DNA of 64,000 nt. Origin: a virus. The stretch spans positions 310,001 through 374,000 of IMG/VR virus record IMGVR_UViG_3300035182_002586; one strand, 5' to 3'. Position 1 is the first letter of the stretch. Every line of letters starts with the position of its first letter. The notes beneath the pieces are model-generated. The model worked only from the letters and a program-made list of their open reading frames with translations. It was not told where the DNA came from and searched no databases. Position numbers and translations under genes: made by a program. Below, piece after piece: positions 31,940 to 63,726 of this stretch.

Positions 31940-32887
31940 TCAGGGGAGGGTTCGGGGGCGCCCCACCTGACGAGGGTGTTGGATGCCGTGTTCGACGAGA
32001 TGCCGTCGCACGGTCGTCTCGGTCTGTCCTAGCTCCCGCGCGATGCGCTTGATGGGGACTCCCTTCGCGGACATCTCCCGGAGCACCTTCGGCGTGAGCA
32101 CCTGCCTGACCTGGTAGTGCGGCCCCTGAAAGCCGAAGGTGAGCTTGTGGGTCATGCACTCTGGCATGTGGGGCTTCACGAGGGCGATGAACCGGAGAGC
32201 CTGCTCTTCCCCCTCCAGGTGGAAGACTCCAGTGTTCCCCTTGCAGACCTCCCATCGGGGACGAAAGCCAAACTGGTCGAAGACACCCATCGCGATGCCC
32301 TGACTCACGGGGTCCATGCCGAAGGTGATGCGAGGCCACCAGCCTACCGAACCGTCGTCCATGAACCACACGGCTAGGACGAGACTGTCTACGACGTGGA
32401 GGACCTCCCGGGTAAGGTGCTTCGGGCCATCCCCGTCATAGAAGCGCTCATGCCACTCGACCAGGCTCGCATGGGAAACTGTGTGGAAGCGCCACCCGGG
32501 GAATTCACGCCCTTCCCTGCGCCACACAACAGGGGCTAGAGGGGCTTGCACCCACTGACCCCACTCCCTGGCTTTCCACTCGATGTACGCGTGCTGCGCG
32601 TCAGAGTGGTTCTCCTGATAACGAGCTGCATGAGGCGTTCGCGAGAGACGGCCATCACCGAGCATCGATCCCACCAGGATGGACTGGAGGCGCCCCTCAA
32701 TAGGCGTGACGGTGTTCCTCTCTGCACGCTCCAGCGTCCGAATGCCATAATGCTTCCGCCAAGAACGCACCCTTTTCAGGGTCGTGGGTTCTCCGAGGCG
32801 AGTGACGATCTCTTCGTCGGTCAGCTTCTCTTCGATGTACAGGCGAGCGAGTTCTTCGGGGGGTACGGGGCACTCGATACGACGCAT
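31940..32887 (-). CDS. Free-standing LAGLIDADG homing endonuclease
   Basis: 315 residues. Two LAGLIDADG helices: ILVGSMLGDG near 71-80 and LAVWFMDDGS near 171-180, a monomeric layout. Helix-turn-helix-like segments flank the core (LTDEEIVTRLGEPTTLKRV at the N-terminus, KRIARELGQTETTVRRHL near the C-terminus), which bind DNA next to the cut site. Start ATG 32887, 10 nt after a GGTGTA element, chosen over a frame 6 codons longer. It sits at the border of the accessory and virion regions. Confidence 0.88.
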   Translation of the reverse strand: MRRIECPVPPEELARLYIEEKLTDEEIVTRLGEPTTLKRVRSWRKHYGIRTLERAERNTVTPIEGRLQSILVGSMLGDGRLSRTPHAARYQENHSDAQHAYIEWKAREWGQWVQAPLAPVVWRREGREFPGWRFHTVSHASLVEWHERFYDGDGPKHLTREVLHVVDSLVLAVWFMDDGSVGWWPRITFGMDPVSQGIAMGVFDQFGFRPRWEVCKGNTGVFHLEGEEQALRFIALVKPHMPECMTHKLTFGFQGPHYQVRQVLTPKVLREMSAKGVPIKRIARELGQTETTVRRHLVEHGIQHPRQVGRPRTLP

Positions 32888-32897
32888 ACCGATAGTG

Positions 32898-32903
32898 TAC
32901 ACC
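32898..32903 (-). promoter_or_regulatory. GGTGTA element before the LAGLIDADG gene
   Basis: GTGGTGTACACTATCGGT on the minus strand, 10 nt before ATG 32887; TACACT could be a -10 hexamer placing the mRNA start at the ATG. Confidence 0.6.
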
Positions 32904-32963
32904 ACGTTGACGCTTTCGTCCTCAAGTGCTGTGACGAAAGCGTCTGGCGCCTTTTCAAAACGT

Positions 32964-44769: not shown

Positions 44770-45744
44770 CTACTTCCCCGGGTCAAACATCCCTTCGTCG
44801 ATCAAACGGTCCCGAAGATAGTCTGGGTCAGCGTAGGGCTCGTTTTCTCGCACCAGGAAGTACCGAAGGGTAGGATCCTCGTGGATCAGGTTCTCTTTGA
44901 TCCGGTCCCGCTCCTGTAGTGCAAAGTACCGCTCCTCGCACTTGATGTAAACGCTAGGGAAAACGTAGTGCTGGTAGCCGTGGAACTCCACGATGAGGTG
45001 GTGGGAGGGGAAGAAGCCATCGAAGCGGAAGAAGCCATCGAAGCGGAAGCGATGGCCGGTCGAGGGGTTGACGAAACGGCGAGGACTCCACTCCTGCTCG
45101 TACACGACACCCCCGAGAGCCCTCGACACTGCATCGAGGCAGAGAGTTTGACGGAGGCGGTGGCTGAATGTCTCCAGACCGTGGCGTTCGCACTCACGCT
45201 TGATGACCTTGAAGTCGCGCCCGAGTGCCGCCATCGCTTGAGCGATGACCACCCGGTTCCATCCTGCGCTGGCAGACATCTTTGCCCGGGTCTCGGCGGA
45301 GAGGGTGCGGCCCTTGCGGGTTGCCTTATCCCTGATCGCAGACCTGCGGGAGATGACGTCCCCTTCGTACTGGCCTTCGTGCTCTGGGTGCTTGGATCGG
45401 ATGTGACTCACCAGGCTCTCTGCGCGGTGACCGCAGAGGTGGCATGTCACATAGTCTTCCCTTTCGATCTTGCCCTGCCACACGACCTCATCATCTTGGG
45501 TCTTACACGACGGACACCGAAGATCCTTCGATGCGAAGGTCAACCCCACTTGATGGGAGGCACCACACGGGCAAGTGACGATCTTTTTCTGTCCCGTTCG
45601 GGGATTCTCAGCGTGAGCCCGTGTGATAGCGACTCGTCGGTTTGCTTCACATGTCTCGGACCGGATGCGGGCGTCAGGATACTGTGCCCGATATGCGTCG
45701 GCCGTGACCCCATGCGTAGCCTTGAGGTGGCTAGCCAGAGTCAC
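44770..45744 (-). CDS. Homing endonuclease-like protein with zinc-finger codons before the start
   Basis: 324 residues from GTG 45744. Features: TLASHLKATHG-type start, two further zinc-binding segments (CPCGASHQ ... CPSCK; CHLCGHRAESLVSH), a helical DNA-binding part (KATRKGRTLSAETRAKM) and a C-terminal nuclease-like region with HHLIVEFHGYQHY and RYFLVREN. In frame just upstream of GTG 45744 the codons read ETVTCRICGHSA, the usual first zinc finger of such proteins, but there is no ATG, GTG or TTG between the in-frame TAG and those Cys codons. The 5' end may be truncated. Confidence 0.7.
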   Translation of the reverse strand: MTLASHLKATHGVTADAYRAQYPDARIRSETCEANRRVAITRAHAENPRTGQKKIVTCPCGASHQVGLTFASKDLRCPSCKTQDDEVVWQGKIEREDYVTCHLCGHRAESLVSHIRSKHPEHEGQYEGDVISRRSAIRDKATRKGRTLSAETRAKMSASAGWNRVVIAQAMAALGRDFKVIKRECERHGLETFSHRLRQTLCLDAVSRALGGVVYEQEWSPRRFVNPSTGHRFRFDGFFRFDGFFPSHHLIVEFHGYQHYVFPSVYIKCEERYFALQERDRIKENLIHEDPTLRYFLVRENEPYADPDYLRDRLIDEGMFDPGK

Positions 45745-52460: not shown

Positions 52461-53474
52461 CTACTCCGAGTGGGCATCACGCGCGAGAACCAGCAGGCCC
52501 TCGGCTACGGCGGTCATCGGGTCCTTCGCCTGACGGACCTCGCTGATCGGGATCGGGAAGCCGCGCTTCTTCACGGCCTCGAACTCTTCCTTGAAGATGT
52601 CCATGAACCCGTCGGCCTTCGACGTACCGCCGGAGACGACGAACGGGATGGCATCGGGGAGGTCGATCTTCGTTTGGCTCTTGCGGAACTGCGCTGCGAT
52701 GTTGTCGAGGCAGTACGTGATGAGGGCGCGGATGTAGAGCGCGATCGCCTCCTGCTCACGGCCAACCGGCTTCGTGAGATTGACGCCCTTCTCCTTGATC
52801 GCGCACATGCGGGCCGGCGTTGAACCCATCGCCTTGGCTGCGTGGGCGTCGACCCAATCACCGCCACGTGCGAGGGCGAACGAGAGACCCTCGACCGTCT
52901 GGTACGAGAGGGCCACGTTGCACATACCCGACCCGAAGCTCACCGCGAGACCTGAGAAGCCGTCGTCCGCGCAGTTCGAGTAGACGATGGCCATCGCCTC
53001 GTTCGTCGGGACGGCCTTGTACCCGTGCTCGGTGATGATCTTCCGGAAGATCTCAGTGTGGTACACGATGTCCTGGCCTTCGTCGTCGACCGGGGCAGCG
53101 GGCACGCTGTAGTAGCAGTTCTCGCCGGAGACGACCGGATCCTCCAGGACCTTGTAGACGAGAAGGCTCAGGATCTCCTGCGCGTCCACCTCGGCGGAGG
53201 ACACGACACCCCGTGCCAGCGGACGGCGCACGTCACGCTTGAACAGGTTTGCCATCGTAAGGGCACTGTCCCCGATGACGATGATCTGCCCATCCTTCTC
53301 GATGTACGAGACCTTGGACATCCTGAGAGAGCGTTTCGCCTCCGGGTCTAGATCCAGGAAGGCGTCGCGGACCCTCTGTGTCACGGTTTTGTCGTTGTCG
53401 TTCGTGCGAGCAGAAACCAAATTCATGGTTCCCACGTCGAGTCCGACCCCAGGTCTCATTTTCGCGTCGCCCAT
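52461..53474 (-). CDS. Actin-like ATPase (ParM/MreB superfamily)
   Basis: 337 residues. Phosphate-1 motif GVGLDVGTMNLV (10-20), connect-1 TNEAMAIVYSN near 157-167, phosphate-2 LAVSFGSGMCNVALSY (176-191) and adenosine motif FVVSGGTSKADGF (278-290). In phosphate-2 the usual Asp is replaced by Ser. Length is close to ParM and phage Alp proteins. Such proteins polymerise into filaments that move DNA or position phage factories. Start ATG 53474 has GGGAGAAG 5 nt upstream; ATG 53459 is possible. It lies in the tail gene cluster, next to a homing endonuclease that overlaps its start. Confidence 0.8.
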   Translation of the reverse strand: MGDAKMRPGVGLDVGTMNLVSARTNDNDKTVTQRVRDAFLDLDPEAKRSLRMSKVSYIEKDGQIIVIGDSALTMANLFKRDVRRPLARGVVSSAEVDAQEILSLLVYKVLEDPVVSGENCYYSVPAAPVDDEGQDIVYHTEIFRKIITEHGYKAVPTNEAMAIVYSNCADDGFSGLAVSFGSGMCNVALSYQTVEGLSFALARGGDWVDAHAAKAMGSTPARMCAIKEKGVNLTKPVGREQEAIALYIRALITYCLDNIAAQFRKSQTKIDLPDAIPFVVSGGTSKADGFMDIFKEEFEAVKKRGFPIPISEVRQAKDPMTAVAEGLLVLARDAHSE

Positions 53475-54238
53475 TTGATCTTCTCCCTGATTCGATTTTC
53501 ACATGCTGCGGGGTCTGTCTGGATGTCACGTTCCCACAGACGAAGCACAGACAGCCCTCGCATCAAAGCCTGCTTGTCGGCCAAAGTGTCCAGCCCCTTG
53601 CGTTGTCTCTGCCTCGGGCTGAGTTGCTTGTAAACGGCTGGATTACCGTGCCAGTAATCTCCGGTTTGGATCACAACTCCCAGGGAGGGGATAAGAAAGT
53701 CCACGGTGAAGTCCCCCACCTGTCCCTGTGCGACGAAATCCACCGTGAGGCGTTCTAGTACCCCTCTGACCCAAGCCTCAATTTTCGTCTCCCGTCGTTG
53801 AAACTTGCGAAGCCTCTCTGGTGAGGCAGCTCGGAGCTTGGCCTTGTACTCCTCTGCCTGAGTTGGACCGTACGTTTCTTCGTAGGAGCGCCCCGCTTTA
53901 GACTGGACGTGTGCTCTGATCCCACGTGTGATCTCAGCGACGTACTTGGGATCTTGGTAGAGGTGTTTGACCCTGTGGACAGGGTTCGCTTCACCTCGCT
54001 GCTGCTCTCCGAACTCGGGGTGCACACGATGCCATCGACAAAGAGGGTTTCGGTCCCCCTCCAACCATGGCTTGTCCCTCTCAGAAAGCGTCTTGGTACG
54101 TAGCCCATGCCGACGTAGTTCACGCTGGATCGTTGCGGACCCGCAGTGGAAAAACGTCTTCAAATCTGACAGCCGTGCGTCTGGATTCGCAGCCAGTACG
54201 GCTTCCAGTTCGGCTTTGGGTATCTCTCGCCCAGGCAT
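53456..54238 (-). CDS. Free-standing homing endonuclease, Vsr-like fold
   Basis: 260 residues from ATG 54238 (TAGGAAC upstream; ATG 54262 also possible). A helix-turn-helix-like segment (DLKTFFHCGSATIQRELRRHG) and basic spacer lead to a C-terminal nuclease of the Vsr/PD-(D/E)XK type: VDFVAQGQVGDFTVDFLIPSLGVVIQTGDYWHGNPAVY and LRLWERDI. It overlaps the actin-like gene start by 19 nt. Confidence 0.8.
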   Translation of the reverse strand: MPGREIPKAELEAVLAANPDARLSDLKTFFHCGSATIQRELRRHGLRTKTLSERDKPWLEGDRNPLCRWHRVHPEFGEQQRGEANPVHRVKHLYQDPKYVAEITRGIRAHVQSKAGRSYEETYGPTQAEEYKAKLRAASPERLRKFQRRETKIEAWVRGVLERLTVDFVAQGQVGDFTVDFLIPSLGVVIQTGDYWHGNPAVYKQLSPRQRQRKGLDTLADKQALMRGLSVLRLWERDIQTDPAACENRIREKIKWATRK

Positions 54239-54273
54239 TGTTCCTACATCTGAGCCTGGCATAAGAGCAATCT

Positions 54274-59435: not shown

Positions 59436-59900
59436 ATGAGCCAAGGTGTGTTGGTCGTGTCTCTGGCCGATGGGAAGGTGGTGGTTTCTGCTGGGGATGA
59501 AAAGCGTACCTTTGCCCACGAGGACACGGAGAAGATCGGAGATTTCCTAGCGGAGCAAGAGCCGCACCGCATCATGTACTCTTCGTCGGTGAGCCACCCC
59601 GACGAGTACGGGTTCCCCGAGGACTTCAACCTGGACCCGTTTCTCGCGAAGGCCGAAGCACACGCCAGGATGAAGACGGCGGTGAGGTTCCCACCCCACC
59701 CTCTACAGGAGGCCACCGAAGCTCTCGAAGCGGCCACCGCCTCGGCACCCAAGGACAGACCTGTCGCGGTGCTGTTCCTCCAGGCGGGCAAAGAGGGTCA
59801 GGACGCCCTCGTCGAGTTCGCAGGCGAGTCCGAGCTGGAGATGTTCCTTGGGGGTATGCGGTACGCGAGGAACCTCGCCAAGCTCACGTCGAAGGACTAG
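59436..59900 (+). CDS. Hypothetical protein, 154 aa
   Basis: Starts MSQGVLVVSLADGKVVVSAG, 10 nt after the GGTGTA element. Beta start, then an acidic region (EDTEKIGDFLAEQEPH), a Pro/Glu linker and a helical end (ESELEMFLGGMRYARNLA). Unknown family. Overlaps the convergent endonuclease end by 4 nt. Confidence 0.65.
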   Translation: MSQGVLVVSLADGKVVVSAGDEKRTFAHEDTEKIGDFLAEQEPHRIMYSSSVSHPDEYGFPEDFNLDPFLAKAEAHARMKTAVRFPPHPLQEATEALEAATASAPKDRPVAVLFLQAGKEGQDALVEFAGESELEMFLGGMRYARNLAKLTSKD

Positions 59901-61369
59901 GGCTTGTGTAGTTTCGACAGGAACTCTGCGACGCGCCCCTGTACTTCTTGGGGGTCTGCCTTGAGGTCGGACTCCCACACGACCAAGCAAGACACCCCGA
60001 TGTCTGCGTAGGCTCCGATCAGCTCTTGTTCGTGATCGAAGTTCGCTTTGCCCGTGAACATTCGGGAGTGCCAAAAGTCCCCAAACAACTCGACCGCTTT
60101 CGTAATACCCATTTTCGGGCGTGCGAGGTCCGGGCCGGGAAGAAGAAAATCGGGGTTCTTGTGTTGCCCCAGCTTAGGCAACCACCGCCAGAATGTACCG
60201 TTCCCCGTGTAGAGAAGCTGTGGGACGAGTGCATGAAGCATCCGTTCGGACAGGTTCGGCCCCGATCGTACATTCGCACAGAGGGCTTTGAAAGCCACAC
60301 CGGGGTCCATCATGGCATTGGGGACACCGTAGGTGTCCATACACGTAGCTTTGTACGACTCGACTGCCTTCACGTAGACTTCTGGGCTCTTCATGGGGTT
60401 ATCGAACCCATACCGTTCCAAGCATACGGTGCGTCGTTTCTCCAGCACCTCTGCAAGTTGCAGAGGGTGTGTCACGCCGTACTTGCGCAAGAAAGTCTCA
60501 ACGGCCCTATCCCAAAACCCGTCGATCTTTGCAGGATGATCGACCCCATACCTTTCTATGAGTGCCTCTCGGATCTTCGCTCGACCTTCATCCGAGGCTA
60601 GAAAGTGGCTGCCGTACCGTCCTTCCATGGTGTCGTACTGTTGCTGACGCACACCAGGATGTTGTGCGGTCCAGTCTACACCCCAGCGCTTCTGGTTCGT
60701 CTGGCGTGTACGCCCCACAACCTCTGCCGAGGCACCAGGAGATGGCCCCCCGTACCGTTTAGTGTTGGTCGCAATGATACGCGCCCGCACCTCAGGAGAA
60801 GCTAACACCTCCCCCACGCCATACCTATCCAAGTTCGTAGCGCGTGTCTGTGCCCGAACGACAGGTGACTGCTGAGGGTTCTCCGCTCCACGACGTGCGA
60901 GATGTGTAGCTCGGATCTTAGCTTTTACGTCAGCACGAGAGAAAGGATTGTCCTCCCCCGTAAGCGACCGGTGGTTCGCTTTCGACGCTGCTTGTACTTG
61001 AGCGAAAAGTGCGGACTCACGTGCGAAGTTGTTTTCCGCTCCGTACCTCTCTCTTAGCGTGGCTTTACGTCTTTCTTCAGCAGACGTAATGCTTCGGGGG
61101 TTTACCACACCTTCGCCATGATTTCGTTGGAGGGTCTCCGCAAGACGCTCCATCTGCACCTCCCCCCGATCGCGCTCCGCCCAACGTGTACACGATGTTC
61201 GATGGCGCTTCATCTGCGTAGCAGACATCGCCTCAAACCCACACAGACAGGGCCTTGGTCTGCGATCACCCAGTGCCTCTCGCCAGCCCTCACACACAGA
61301 CTTGTGGCGAGAGTTGATCACGTCAGAGGTAGCGAAGTGCTTTTGGCAGTGGGGGCAAGTGACGGGCAC
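59897..61369 (-). CDS. Homing endonuclease with many RYG repeats and Vsr-like nuclease domain
   Basis: 490 residues. Two zinc fingers at the N-terminus (VTCPHCQKHFATSD ... HKSVC; PCLCGFEAMSATQMKRHRTSC), then about ten copies of a 25-40-residue repeat with core RYG[AVF] (RERYGAENN, LDRYGVGEV, IERYGVDHP, LERYGFDNP and others), and a C-terminal nuclease: KNPDFLLPG, VELFGDFWHS and CLVVWESDL. This is the layout of a known group of phage endonucleases with DNA-binding repeats. Lies 27 nt after the split-intein gene. Confidence 0.85.
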   Translation of the reverse strand: MPVTCPHCQKHFATSDVINSRHKSVCEGWREALGDRRPRPCLCGFEAMSATQMKRHRTSCTRWAERDRGEVQMERLAETLQRNHGEGVVNPRSITSAEERRKATLRERYGAENNFARESALFAQVQAASKANHRSLTGEDNPFSRADVKAKIRATHLARRGAENPQQSPVVRAQTRATNLDRYGVGEVLASPEVRARIIATNTKRYGGPSPGASAEVVGRTRQTNQKRWGVDWTAQHPGVRQQQYDTMEGRYGSHFLASDEGRAKIREALIERYGVDHPAKIDGFWDRAVETFLRKYGVTHPLQLAEVLEKRRTVCLERYGFDNPMKSPEVYVKAVESYKATCMDTYGVPNAMMDPGVAFKALCANVRSGPNLSERMLHALVPQLLYTGNGTFWRWLPKLGQHKNPDFLLPGPDLARPKMGITKAVELFGDFWHSRMFTGKANFDHEQELIGAYADIGVSCLVVWESDLKADPQEVQGRVAEFLSKLHKP

Positions 61370-61396: not shown

Positions 61397-62341
61397 TTAG
61401 GCAAGGTGTGGGGACAGCATATCGAGAATAACCTTACAAAACAGGAACAAGGGGATGACGAATCCTACGAACTTTCTAGGTGTGAGTACACCTGCACCTA
61501 CATAGGGTCCAAAACTCGACCTGATTCCCGTTCCGAACTTCGGCTGCTGAAGACCACGGACGAAGTTGACGGTGGCTTTCGCGCGATCAAGCTGCTTGTC
61601 GAATTGGTCAGCCGCCGCGTTCATCGCCGCTTCGTACTTGCTTGCCTTGTCGATGCCGAGCGAAACGCCGCCGATGGAGTAGTCGAACTCGTCCGCCACC
61701 CAGTTGATGCGGAGCGCCTGTAGGGCGTGAATCTGCGCGGCCGTGAGCAGGAGCGTGGTCCACTCGCGTCGCTCACGCACCATCACATCGACGCTCGGGA
61801 AGGGCGTGCGCGGCGGTGCCGAGACGATCATATCCAGACCGCGCTGGATGTACTCGTTCAGCTCTTCCTCTTCCCAGATGAAGCCGAAGACCCGGTTGAA
61901 CTGCCGGATGGTCGTCTCGTGGGTCGGGGGGCGGAAGTGGTAATTGCGGTCAGGGGAGTTCGAGACGAGCATCCCGGATCGGTGGAGAACGAAGTTGTGC
62001 CAGTCCTCCGCTGTCAGATCATACATGTACTGTCTGGAGGGCAGACGTTCCACAGAGAGAACCTGTACAGAGGCACTGTGACTCGCAACCTTGGTGTCTG
62101 TGCTCAGTCTCTCCGTCTCTACCTTGGTGCGCGGGGTCAGAAACACCCGGTGACCACCAGTCAGGACAGACGAACCCTTGGAGGTCGTCACCTTGAGGAT
62201 CGATTCCGGACCCACCTCAGCTCGATGAACGTGTAGGACGCGCTTCCACTCCGACTGACCCTCGGGGGAGACAGACTGCACACGCAACGACCCTTGTTCA
62301 AAGGCCGCTCGGATCTTCTCGCGTTGCAAGGGGCTCAGCAT
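61397..62341 (-). CDS. Split-intein C-half (IntC) fused to the C-terminal part of a baseplate/neck protein
   Basis: 314 residues from ATG 62341 (AGAAGGAC upstream). Residues 1-128 are the C-part of an intein: block B LTGGHRVFLT near 60-69, block F YMYDLTAEDWHNF near 105-117 and the end SGMLVSN. Ser129 begins the extein SPDRNYHFRPP. Penultimate His is Ser here. The extein (186 residues) continues the protein whose first 133 residues are encoded at 63220-63726, with FGFIWEEEELNEYI and a hydrophobic C-terminus. The order matches a trans-spliced phage structural protein. Confidence 0.85.
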   Translation of the reverse strand: MLSPLQREKIRAAFEQGSLRVQSVSPEGQSEWKRVLHVHRAEVGPESILKVTTSKGSSVLTGGHRVFLTPRTKVETERLSTDTKVASHSASVQVLSVERLPSRQYMYDLTAEDWHNFVLHRSGMLVSNSPDRNYHFRPPTHETTIRQFNRVFGFIWEEEELNEYIQRGLDMIVSAPPRTPFPSVDVMVRERREWTTLLLTAAQIHALQALRINWVADEFDYSIGGVSLGIDKASKYEAAMNAAADQFDKQLDRAKATVNFVRGLQQPKFGTGIRSSFGPYVGAGVLTPRKFVGFVIPLFLFCKVILDMLSPHLA

Positions 62342-63263
62342 CGAAGTCCTTCTCCGTCCAGATGAGGAAGTCCCACCCCATGCGCGCTGCATAGGAAGAA
62401 GCTGCTTCGAGCCTGCGCGTCACACGGTGGTCCGGGGGGAGGCTCAGGGTCCAGCTCGCCTTCACTTCGACCAGAACGATGGACCCGTCATGGTGGGTCA
62501 CAAAGAAGTCGGGAAGGATCCAACGACCATCTGGCAGCTCTACCCGTGGCTCAAACAAGTACTCTTTCACAGACGGGTCACGATCCAGAAGGCGCACCAC
62601 AACCCGCTCATAGCTGCTGCGCGTCCAAATGAGTGCCCGTGTGCACTTCTTGGGGGACACCCACTCGCCGCGACCCCGCTGCCACTTTTCGGGGTTGTCC
62701 AACATACGTTGTGTCTGCGCCGCAGACCGGAGCGCCCGCACATCCTCTCGGTGATGATACGCCAGAAGACGGCCACGCTCCTCAGGACGTTGCCACCTGC
62801 GAAGCGCGGATTCACGGCGGCGATGCTTTACATCGGGCCTCTGTGCGACAAGGCGTAGCGTTTCCCGCTCCTCAACAGACCGAATACGACCACGGTGAAA
62901 GTCGAACGAGCCGGCCTCCCACGCTTTCTGCATCCGCAATGAGAGCCACGGCTTCTCTCGGCCCTTACCTGCACGGCCAACGACAGCAGCGTTTGCGGCC
63001 CGGTTAGCTCTGGAGGCGTCGTTCCACGCTGCCTTGGTCAGTCGTTGTATGGCAGCGAGTGACAAGCCGGTCAGAGACATCATCCGCTTCCAGGGGGTCC
63101 CTGCGGCATGTAACTCTGTGACCAAAGCACTGCGTTTCTGGGCAACCCCCAAAGGAGGGCGACCGGGCTTTCGAAACACCTCCCAAGAAATACCGTGCTT
63201 CGCAAGCAACGGTACCAGTTCAGGGGGCGGGAGTAGTTCCGTGGATCGCCTCGTAGAGATCAC
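62298..63263 (-). CDS. Endonuclease gene between the two intein halves
   Basis: 321 residues. Start is unclear (GTG 63263 used; overlaps the N-half gene by 44 nt). N-terminal helix-turn-helix-like part (GTPWKRMMSLTGLSLAAIQRLT), a basic spacer, and a C-terminal nuclease domain with LPDFFVTHHDGSIVLVEVKASW, the D-x-E/K core of PD-(D/E)XK enzymes, then AASSYAARMGWDFLIWTEKDF, as in TnsA-like proteins. Its end overlaps the C-half gene start by 44 nt. Similar arrangement is known from fractured split-intein genes with a free-standing endonuclease. Confidence 0.8.
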   Translation of the reverse strand: MISTRRSTELLPPPELVPLLAKHGISWEVFRKPGRPPLGVAQKRSALVTELHAAGTPWKRMMSLTGLSLAAIQRLTKAAWNDASRANRAANAAVVGRAGKGREKPWLSLRMQKAWEAGSFDFHRGRIRSVEERETLRLVAQRPDVKHRRRESALRRWQRPEERGRLLAYHHREDVRALRSAAQTQRMLDNPEKWQRGRGEWVSPKKCTRALIWTRSSYERVVVRLLDRDPSVKEYLFEPRVELPDGRWILPDFFVTHHDGSIVLVEVKASWTLSLPPDHRVTRRLEAASSYAARMGWDFLIWTEKDFDAEPLATREDPSGL

Positions 63264-63726
63264 GGATAGTAACTACCATTTTCTCGCCCCCCACGTCAAG
63301 TTCGACCTCTTCCTCCCCACCTACACAGTTGTCGCGGAGCAGGATGCGCAGGCGGCGCATCAGGTCGCTCTCGATCTGCGTGAACGTCGAGGTGCCCATG
63401 AGCGAGGCGGTCACCTTGTCGACGACCTCGAACTCCTGGAGCACCTGCTGGATCGCTGCCCCGACCGACTGCCTGAACGTCCATCGGATGCGGTAGCTGC
63501 CGATGTTGGCGTCGAGAGGGATGATGATCGACGAGTAGTACTCGCCGACCGACGGGTTCACCGGCGTCCGCTTCGCGGGACCGAGGAGGACCTCCATCCC
63601 CGTCGTGTAGTCGTAGAGGGCGTAGGAGATCTCCGCGGCGTTCACCGGCACGTCAGACGACGAGACGAGGAAGATGTTGAGGTCCTCCCGCCCGAGCTGC
63701 TGACCCTTGTAGAACGCCGTGGACAT
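63220..63726 (-). CDS. N-terminal part of a baseplate/neck protein fused to a short split-intein N-half (IntN)
   Basis: 168 residues. Residues 1-133 are the N-extein (MSTAFYKGQQLGREDLNIFL ... IESDLMRRLRILLRDN). Cys134 starts the intein with CVGGEEEVELDVGGEKMVV, matching block A, and the protein stops at residue 168 after only 35 intein residues. The second block (B) is not here but in the C-half gene, so the intein is split between A and B, as in atypically split inteins with a short N-part. Confidence 0.85.
   Translation of the reverse strand: MSTAFYKGQQLGREDLNIFLVSSSDVPVNAAEISYALYDYTTGMEVLLGPAKRTPVNPSVGEYYSSIIIPLDANIGSYRIRWTFRQSVGAAIQQVLQEFEVVDKVTASLMGTSTFTQIESDLMRRLRILLRDNCVGGEEEVELDVGGEKMVVTIRDLYEAIHGTTPAP

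Follow-up and report, generated by a model that had tools for sequence, protein, structure and literature searches.

Positions 61397-63726 of the window, the 64,000-nucleotide stretch analysed here (bases 310001-374000 of the 528,957-bp virus record IMGVR_UViG_3300035182_002586), carry three consecutive minus-strand genes with the layout of a fractured gene: a host gene is interrupted by a split intein, and an endonuclease gene lies between the intein halves. Gene 1 (63726..63220, 168 aa) encodes an N-extein of residues 1-133 (63328..63726) ending in RDN, which runs straight into CVGGEEEVELDVGGEKMVVTIRDLYEAIHGTTPAP and a stop codon (63220-63222). These last 35 residues, Cys134 and 34 more, form the N-terminal intein part (IntN; 63223..63327), extending from Cys1 in block A to the first helix. 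The nuclease open reading frame follows (63263..62298, 321 aa counted from a GTG start). Gene 3 (62341..61397, 314 aa) begins with the C-terminal intein part (IntC; residues 1-128, 61958..62341) and continues from Ser129 as SPDRNYHFRPP, the start of a 186-aa C-extein (61400..61957; stop codon 61397-61399) whose first residue is the nucleophile Ser+1. Coordinates and translations reproduced this arrangement as an earlier note on the DNA had described it, including the sum of 133 and 186 residues to a joined extein of 319 aa. With the GTG as nuclease start, both gene junctions overlap by 44 nt, as that note had also claimed. The claim holds at gene 3, where a good Shine-Dalgarno sequence precedes the start (GAGAAGGACTTCG-ATG; sequence 5' of the ATG, GAGAAGGA). 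The first overlap is less sure because no ribosome-binding site is evident in the sequence just upstream of the nuclease GTG. The fracture is far beyond chance, the identical stop-split architecture being found in about 20 distinct phage alleles.

The two exteins form one protein when joined. Against its uninterrupted counterpart in another phage (L014, 299 aa), the 319-residue extein showed 72% identity over 299 aa with 0 gaps, and at the junction RDN-S stood opposite RDN-N. Thus, an uninterrupted homologue spans RDN|SPDR, as the idea of a single interrupted gene predicts, and about 90 more distinct alleles are uninterrupted at this point. The earlier note had spoken of a phage baseplate/neck gene. 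We retain neck or connector and drop baseplate: the isolated phage Tunturi_5 (309 kb) has an uninterrupted homologue (29%) annotated 'head-tail connector protein', and phrog_17327 'connector' gave weak matches (E 6e-4 and 1e-4). Connector is the best name that this weak annotation offers, and the label is one of annotation only. Intron read-through as the source of the C-extein tail was rejected, as orthologues finish at KFVGF or carry a similar hydrophobic tail. Note that many loci (L005, L006, L014, L061 and others) have, 0.5-2 kb upstream, a tandem paralogue of the N-terminal domain with about 30% identity to the N-extein.

Profile searches with residues 134-168 and IntC agreed with the earlier assignment of both segments to an intein. 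IntC matched PF14890 (5.8e-7); together with its extein it scored 29.9 bits against a cut-off of 35.8, and IntN and IntC joined scored 37.6. The N-terminal intein model TIGR01445 (cut-off 24.5) rose from 13.3 bits before joining to 27.8 after it, with the match running from residue 1 through the split. Thus, both cut-offs were passed only by the joined halves. TIGR01443 remained slightly under its cut-off (14.3 of 15.6). The class 1 motifs are all present, namely C1, TGGH (TxxH) in block B, the block F His in MYDLTAEDWHNF (WHNF), N128 and S+1, with block G reading LVSN|S; 20 columns of IntC are invariant in 16 sequences. One relative, L013, carries this intein as an in-frame fusion that lacks both the stop codon and the nuclease. 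As the fused intein alone had no Pfam match in the profile search, we identify it by alignment and fold. The predicted L013 structure is of high confidence (predicted local distance difference test, pLDDT, 96.3), and its best structural matches are inteins, including 6vgv (E 3e-7). The model has a single less confident loop, after helix 1, which coincides with the split point of the other alleles. Located on this model, the natural split thus falls after the first helix, as in atypical splits at the S2 position. IntN is conserved and stop-ended in the other split alleles and measures 29-37 aa (35 aa in the window), inside the published short-IntN range of 15-37 aa (PMC13014065).

From IMG/VR and two metagenome-assembled genome contigs we collected 114 distinct extein alleles. 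The insertion point, site 1, holds an intein in 22 of these and none in 92, of which 89 are also empty at a second site discussed below; L133, outside the 114-allele set, is a 23rd occupied allele. The residue after an intein stays in the spliced product and has to be Ser, Thr or Cys. This +1 residue is Ser or Cys in 22/22 occupied alleles versus 1/92 empty ones, the empties having Asn (83), Lys (4), Ala (2) and single cases of His, Asp and Ser. Among 17 phylogenetically independent pairs differing in occupancy, drawn from an extein tree built without the +1 residue, the nucleophile followed the intein in 16.8 on average and opposed it in 0 (p about 1.5e-5). Such an exchange at +1 is a clean genetic mark of splicing.

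Occupied alleles lie dispersed across the extein tree, which requires at least 17 changes of occupancy. When the intein and extein trees of the 23 occupied alleles were compared, each rejected the other (approximately unbiased test, p 8e-11 and 3e-44). Two near relatives, L147 and L101 (about 90% identity around the site), are distinguished by a clean insertion of 1347 bp and by the +1 codon, AAT versus TGC. Among relatives, site 1 may be empty, may hold a split intein whose nuclease is TnsA-like, HNH, reduced to remnants or missing, or, once, holds a fused intein. The L147/L101 difference, the patchy occupancy and the tree conflict fit homing in which the +1 codon is transferred too.

We then considered whether the intein is likely to be functional. 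Penultimate His is common in class 1 inteins, if not universal. Its replacement by Ser, pointed out in the earlier note, is real and shared by 16 of the 23 alleles. In these 16, the window included, the Ser-Asn ending goes with Trp before the block F His-Asn (WHNF), and 6/23 combine a His-Asn ending with Asn at that place (NHNL). L150 (1/23) has Trp with a penultimate Lys and a degraded look in blocks F and G. The Trp/Ser pairing suggests that the active site is compensated and not decaying, possibly through an alternative arrangement for Asn cyclisation; it is an observation rather than a test because the two types may reflect few events. Ratios of nonsynonymous to synonymous substitution (dN/dS) of both halves were 0.04-0.17 where finite, indicating purifying selection (synonymous rates by the NG86 method were often saturated, and only finite values are quoted). 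Moreover, both halves are kept in alleles whose nuclease is mostly or wholly lost, with inserts of 756 bp (L005), 623 bp (L077), 614 bp (L011), 582 bp (L133) and 571 bp (L127). Judged from these sequence data, the intein looks active.

The nuclease (62298..63263 on the minus strand) is of the TnsA-like PD-(D/E)xK kind. It matched PF08722 (TnsA-like N-terminal) over the cut-off at 2.6e-8, with no match to Vsr/DUF559. A phmmer comparison with PDB sequences returned nothing, whereas a fold search matched the C-terminal domain of the predicted structure to TnsA (1t0f/1f1z; E 2e-6, 2.3 Å over 132 columns). Overall confidence in this model is moderate (pLDDT 80; predicted template modelling score 0.40). 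E219 (RSSYE), D252 (PDF) and E266-x-K268 (VEVK) are invariant in 10/10 nuclease sequences. All 16 loci returned by one IMG/VR scan for the TnsA-like family sit at the site-1 intein; in L010 an HNH nuclease (PF01844) takes the place of the TnsA-like one. The gene product thus has both the fold and the catalytic residues of a nuclease, and is probably a homing endonuclease.

The same gene contains further intein sites in relatives. Site 2 (NWVADEF|DYSIGG, in the C-extein; L060, L088, L103 and others) harbours a second atypically split intein that begins with Ser1, has an IntN of about 31-38 aa and lacks a catalytic Cys, although other Cys residues occur in some copies. Its +1 residue is Ser or Thr in 10/10 occupied alleles and mostly Asp in empties, and the nuclease found there is DUF559/Vsr-like. 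L047 and L072 have this intein in fused form, and L012 and L127 have it split without a full nuclease. Six alleles (L012, L015, L120, L127, L133 and L140) are split at both sites, and their connector must therefore be put together from three separate chains; L127 retains a full nuclease at neither site. A third site (SFGPF|S...HN|SGRG) is occupied in L046 (3221-3694) by a contiguous mini-intein. Note that in L144, L142, L119 and L152 site 2 is empty, yet the +1 residue is Ser and not the usual Asp, perhaps the scar of a lost intein.

The split, the orthology across the junction, the intein identity of the halves, the exchange at +1, the patchy distribution and the tree conflict can all be read from the sequences. 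We infer with considerable confidence a mobile fractured-gene intein whose halves trans-splice and whose TnsA-like nuclease homes the cassette. Gene 1 would yield N-extein-IntN and gene 3 IntC-C-extein. The 35-aa IntN, predicted to comprise two strands and the first helix, would dock onto the 128-aa IntC to complete a class 1 intein. Cys1 would begin with an N-S acyl shift, Ser+1 would take over the N-extein and the terminal Asn would cyclise, leaving the 319-aa connector protein as splicing product in the cell. The homing endonuclease would cut intein-free alleles site-specifically, at or near RDN|NPDR, and repair would copy the whole IntN-nuclease-IntC cassette together with the Ser or Cys +1 codon into the cut allele. 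Several points weigh against this interpretation. The function of the extein leans on weak annotation, the start codon of the nuclease is uncertain, Ser in place of the penultimate His could slow Asn cyclisation, and the conflict between intein and extein trees could also stem from ordinary recombination.

Alternatively, the split intein might be real and splice, the TnsA-like nuclease being a free-standing one that settled there without homing the cassette, and the patchiness a product of loss and of general phage recombination. In favour of this, several carriers have lost the nuclease, keep it in decayed form or have HNH instead, and another nuclease family (P0004-like) is found just downstream of the connector gene in 37/114 alleles, intein or not. 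However, the confinement of one family to this intein in 16/16 loci, the exactness of the insertion at one codon and the lack of any TnsB/C/D context seen speak for a homing cassette, and we regard mere settlement as unlikely. Much less probable still is a dead intein, inactivated by the penultimate Ser and the nuclease fracture, with the two halves acting as separate proteins. L150 shows that degraded block F/G sequences do occur in the family. In contrast, the window retains the catalytic Cys1, TxxH, block F His, terminal Asn and +1 nucleophile, and its penultimate Ser is accompanied by the block F Trp. Asn at +1 gives way to Ser or Cys only together with the intein, and neither purifying selection on both halves nor their survival in alleles that have lost the nuclease would be expected of a dead element.

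Splicing might instead occur at the level of RNA, the nuclease residing in a self-splicing intron nested in a contiguous intein. In favour of this, phage nuclease genes are often located in group I introns. However, an Rfam search of the locus returned noise only and no intron, and other alleles end IntN with a stop and start IntC with its own ATG. In L127 and L133, moreover, the spacing between the genes, roughly 0.1 kb, is too short for such an intron. We rejected the intron and consider it scarcely credible; the mobile, trans-splicing intein is our preferred explanation.

Other nucleases and inteins are found nearby and elsewhere in the record. Directly downstream of gene 3 lies a free-standing nuclease gene (59897-61369, minus strand; DUF7487, phrog_3339 homing endonuclease), a relative of which stands just downstream of the connector gene in 37/114 alleles, with or without intein. 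A LAGLIDADG_2 endonuclease gene (31940-32905, minus strand; PF03161, 3e-23) adjoins a capsid-like gene. Two nuclease-like genes (44770-45744 and about 53456-54262) had no nuclease Pfam match in the profile search. A segment at C1:399263-399361 (L002) was rejected as a partner, being part of a separate contiguous intein, probably of LAGLIDADG type, in a ribonucleotide reductase-like gene of the same phage.

Both fractured genes and atypically split inteins have been described before (PMC7891396, PMC6892783, PMC13014065, PMC10189870). In the accounts of Dassa et al. (2009) given in PMC7090010 and PMC6892783, a fractured gene is interrupted by a split intein whose two halves flank a free-standing nuclease gene, as in the phage gene of the window. 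In the examples AceL NrdHF (PMC7891396) and MIJ3 PolB (PMC6892783), the split lies at the usual endonuclease position or the N side includes blocks A to N4 (98-aa IntN in NrdHF; blocks A, N2, B and N4 in MIJ3), whereas the window intein is split after helix 1 with an IntN of 35 aa. Their nucleases are GIY-YIG or HNH and their hosts DNA-metabolism enzymes, in contrast to the TnsA-like nuclease and virion connector found here. AceL TerL (25-aa IntN) and GOS TerL, at the S2 position (PMC13014065), share the short IntN ending after helix 1 and the long IntC but differ from the window intein in host gene and sequence. VidaL (PDB 6vgv) and PolB16 OarG (PMC10189870), at the S1 position, are likewise natural short-IntN split inteins, split earlier, after strand 2 (IntN 15-16 aa). 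Among natural atypically split inteins, PolB16 is given as the sole cysteine-less one known (PMC13014065, 2026); the site-2 inteins described above have no catalytic Cys either. The nuclease resembles Tn7 TnsA (PF08722; 1t0f, 1f1z) in the fold and catalytic residues of its C-terminal domain, but has a helical N-terminal part of about 190 residues unlike TnsA and occurs in the scan only between these intein halves. Within the reach of these comparisons, three things are new, with priority not settled: the union of both features with a TnsA-like nuclease, a virion connector as host, and natural double fracture. A literature search found no TnsA-like homing endonucleases and no natural double split inteins, which is not proof of absence.

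The balance tips slightly towards a broader reading. TnsA-like nucleases would be a new family of homing endonucleases, and two different atypically split inteins, one with Cys1 (site 1) and one with Ser1 (site 2), would join as many as three polypeptides into the connector; the arrival of the intein, the swap or loss of its nuclease and a fused form would all be seen among relatives at one codon. The gene contributes about 20 natural inteins of the atypically split, short-IntN type, natural cases of two split inteins in one protein and a candidate for a new family of homing nucleases; the second intein family, with Ser1 and Ser or Thr at +1, may serve as a source of cysteine-independent tools. 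The origin of split inteins is an old question, and here a single gene offers a series for comparison at one codon, from empty to split to fused.
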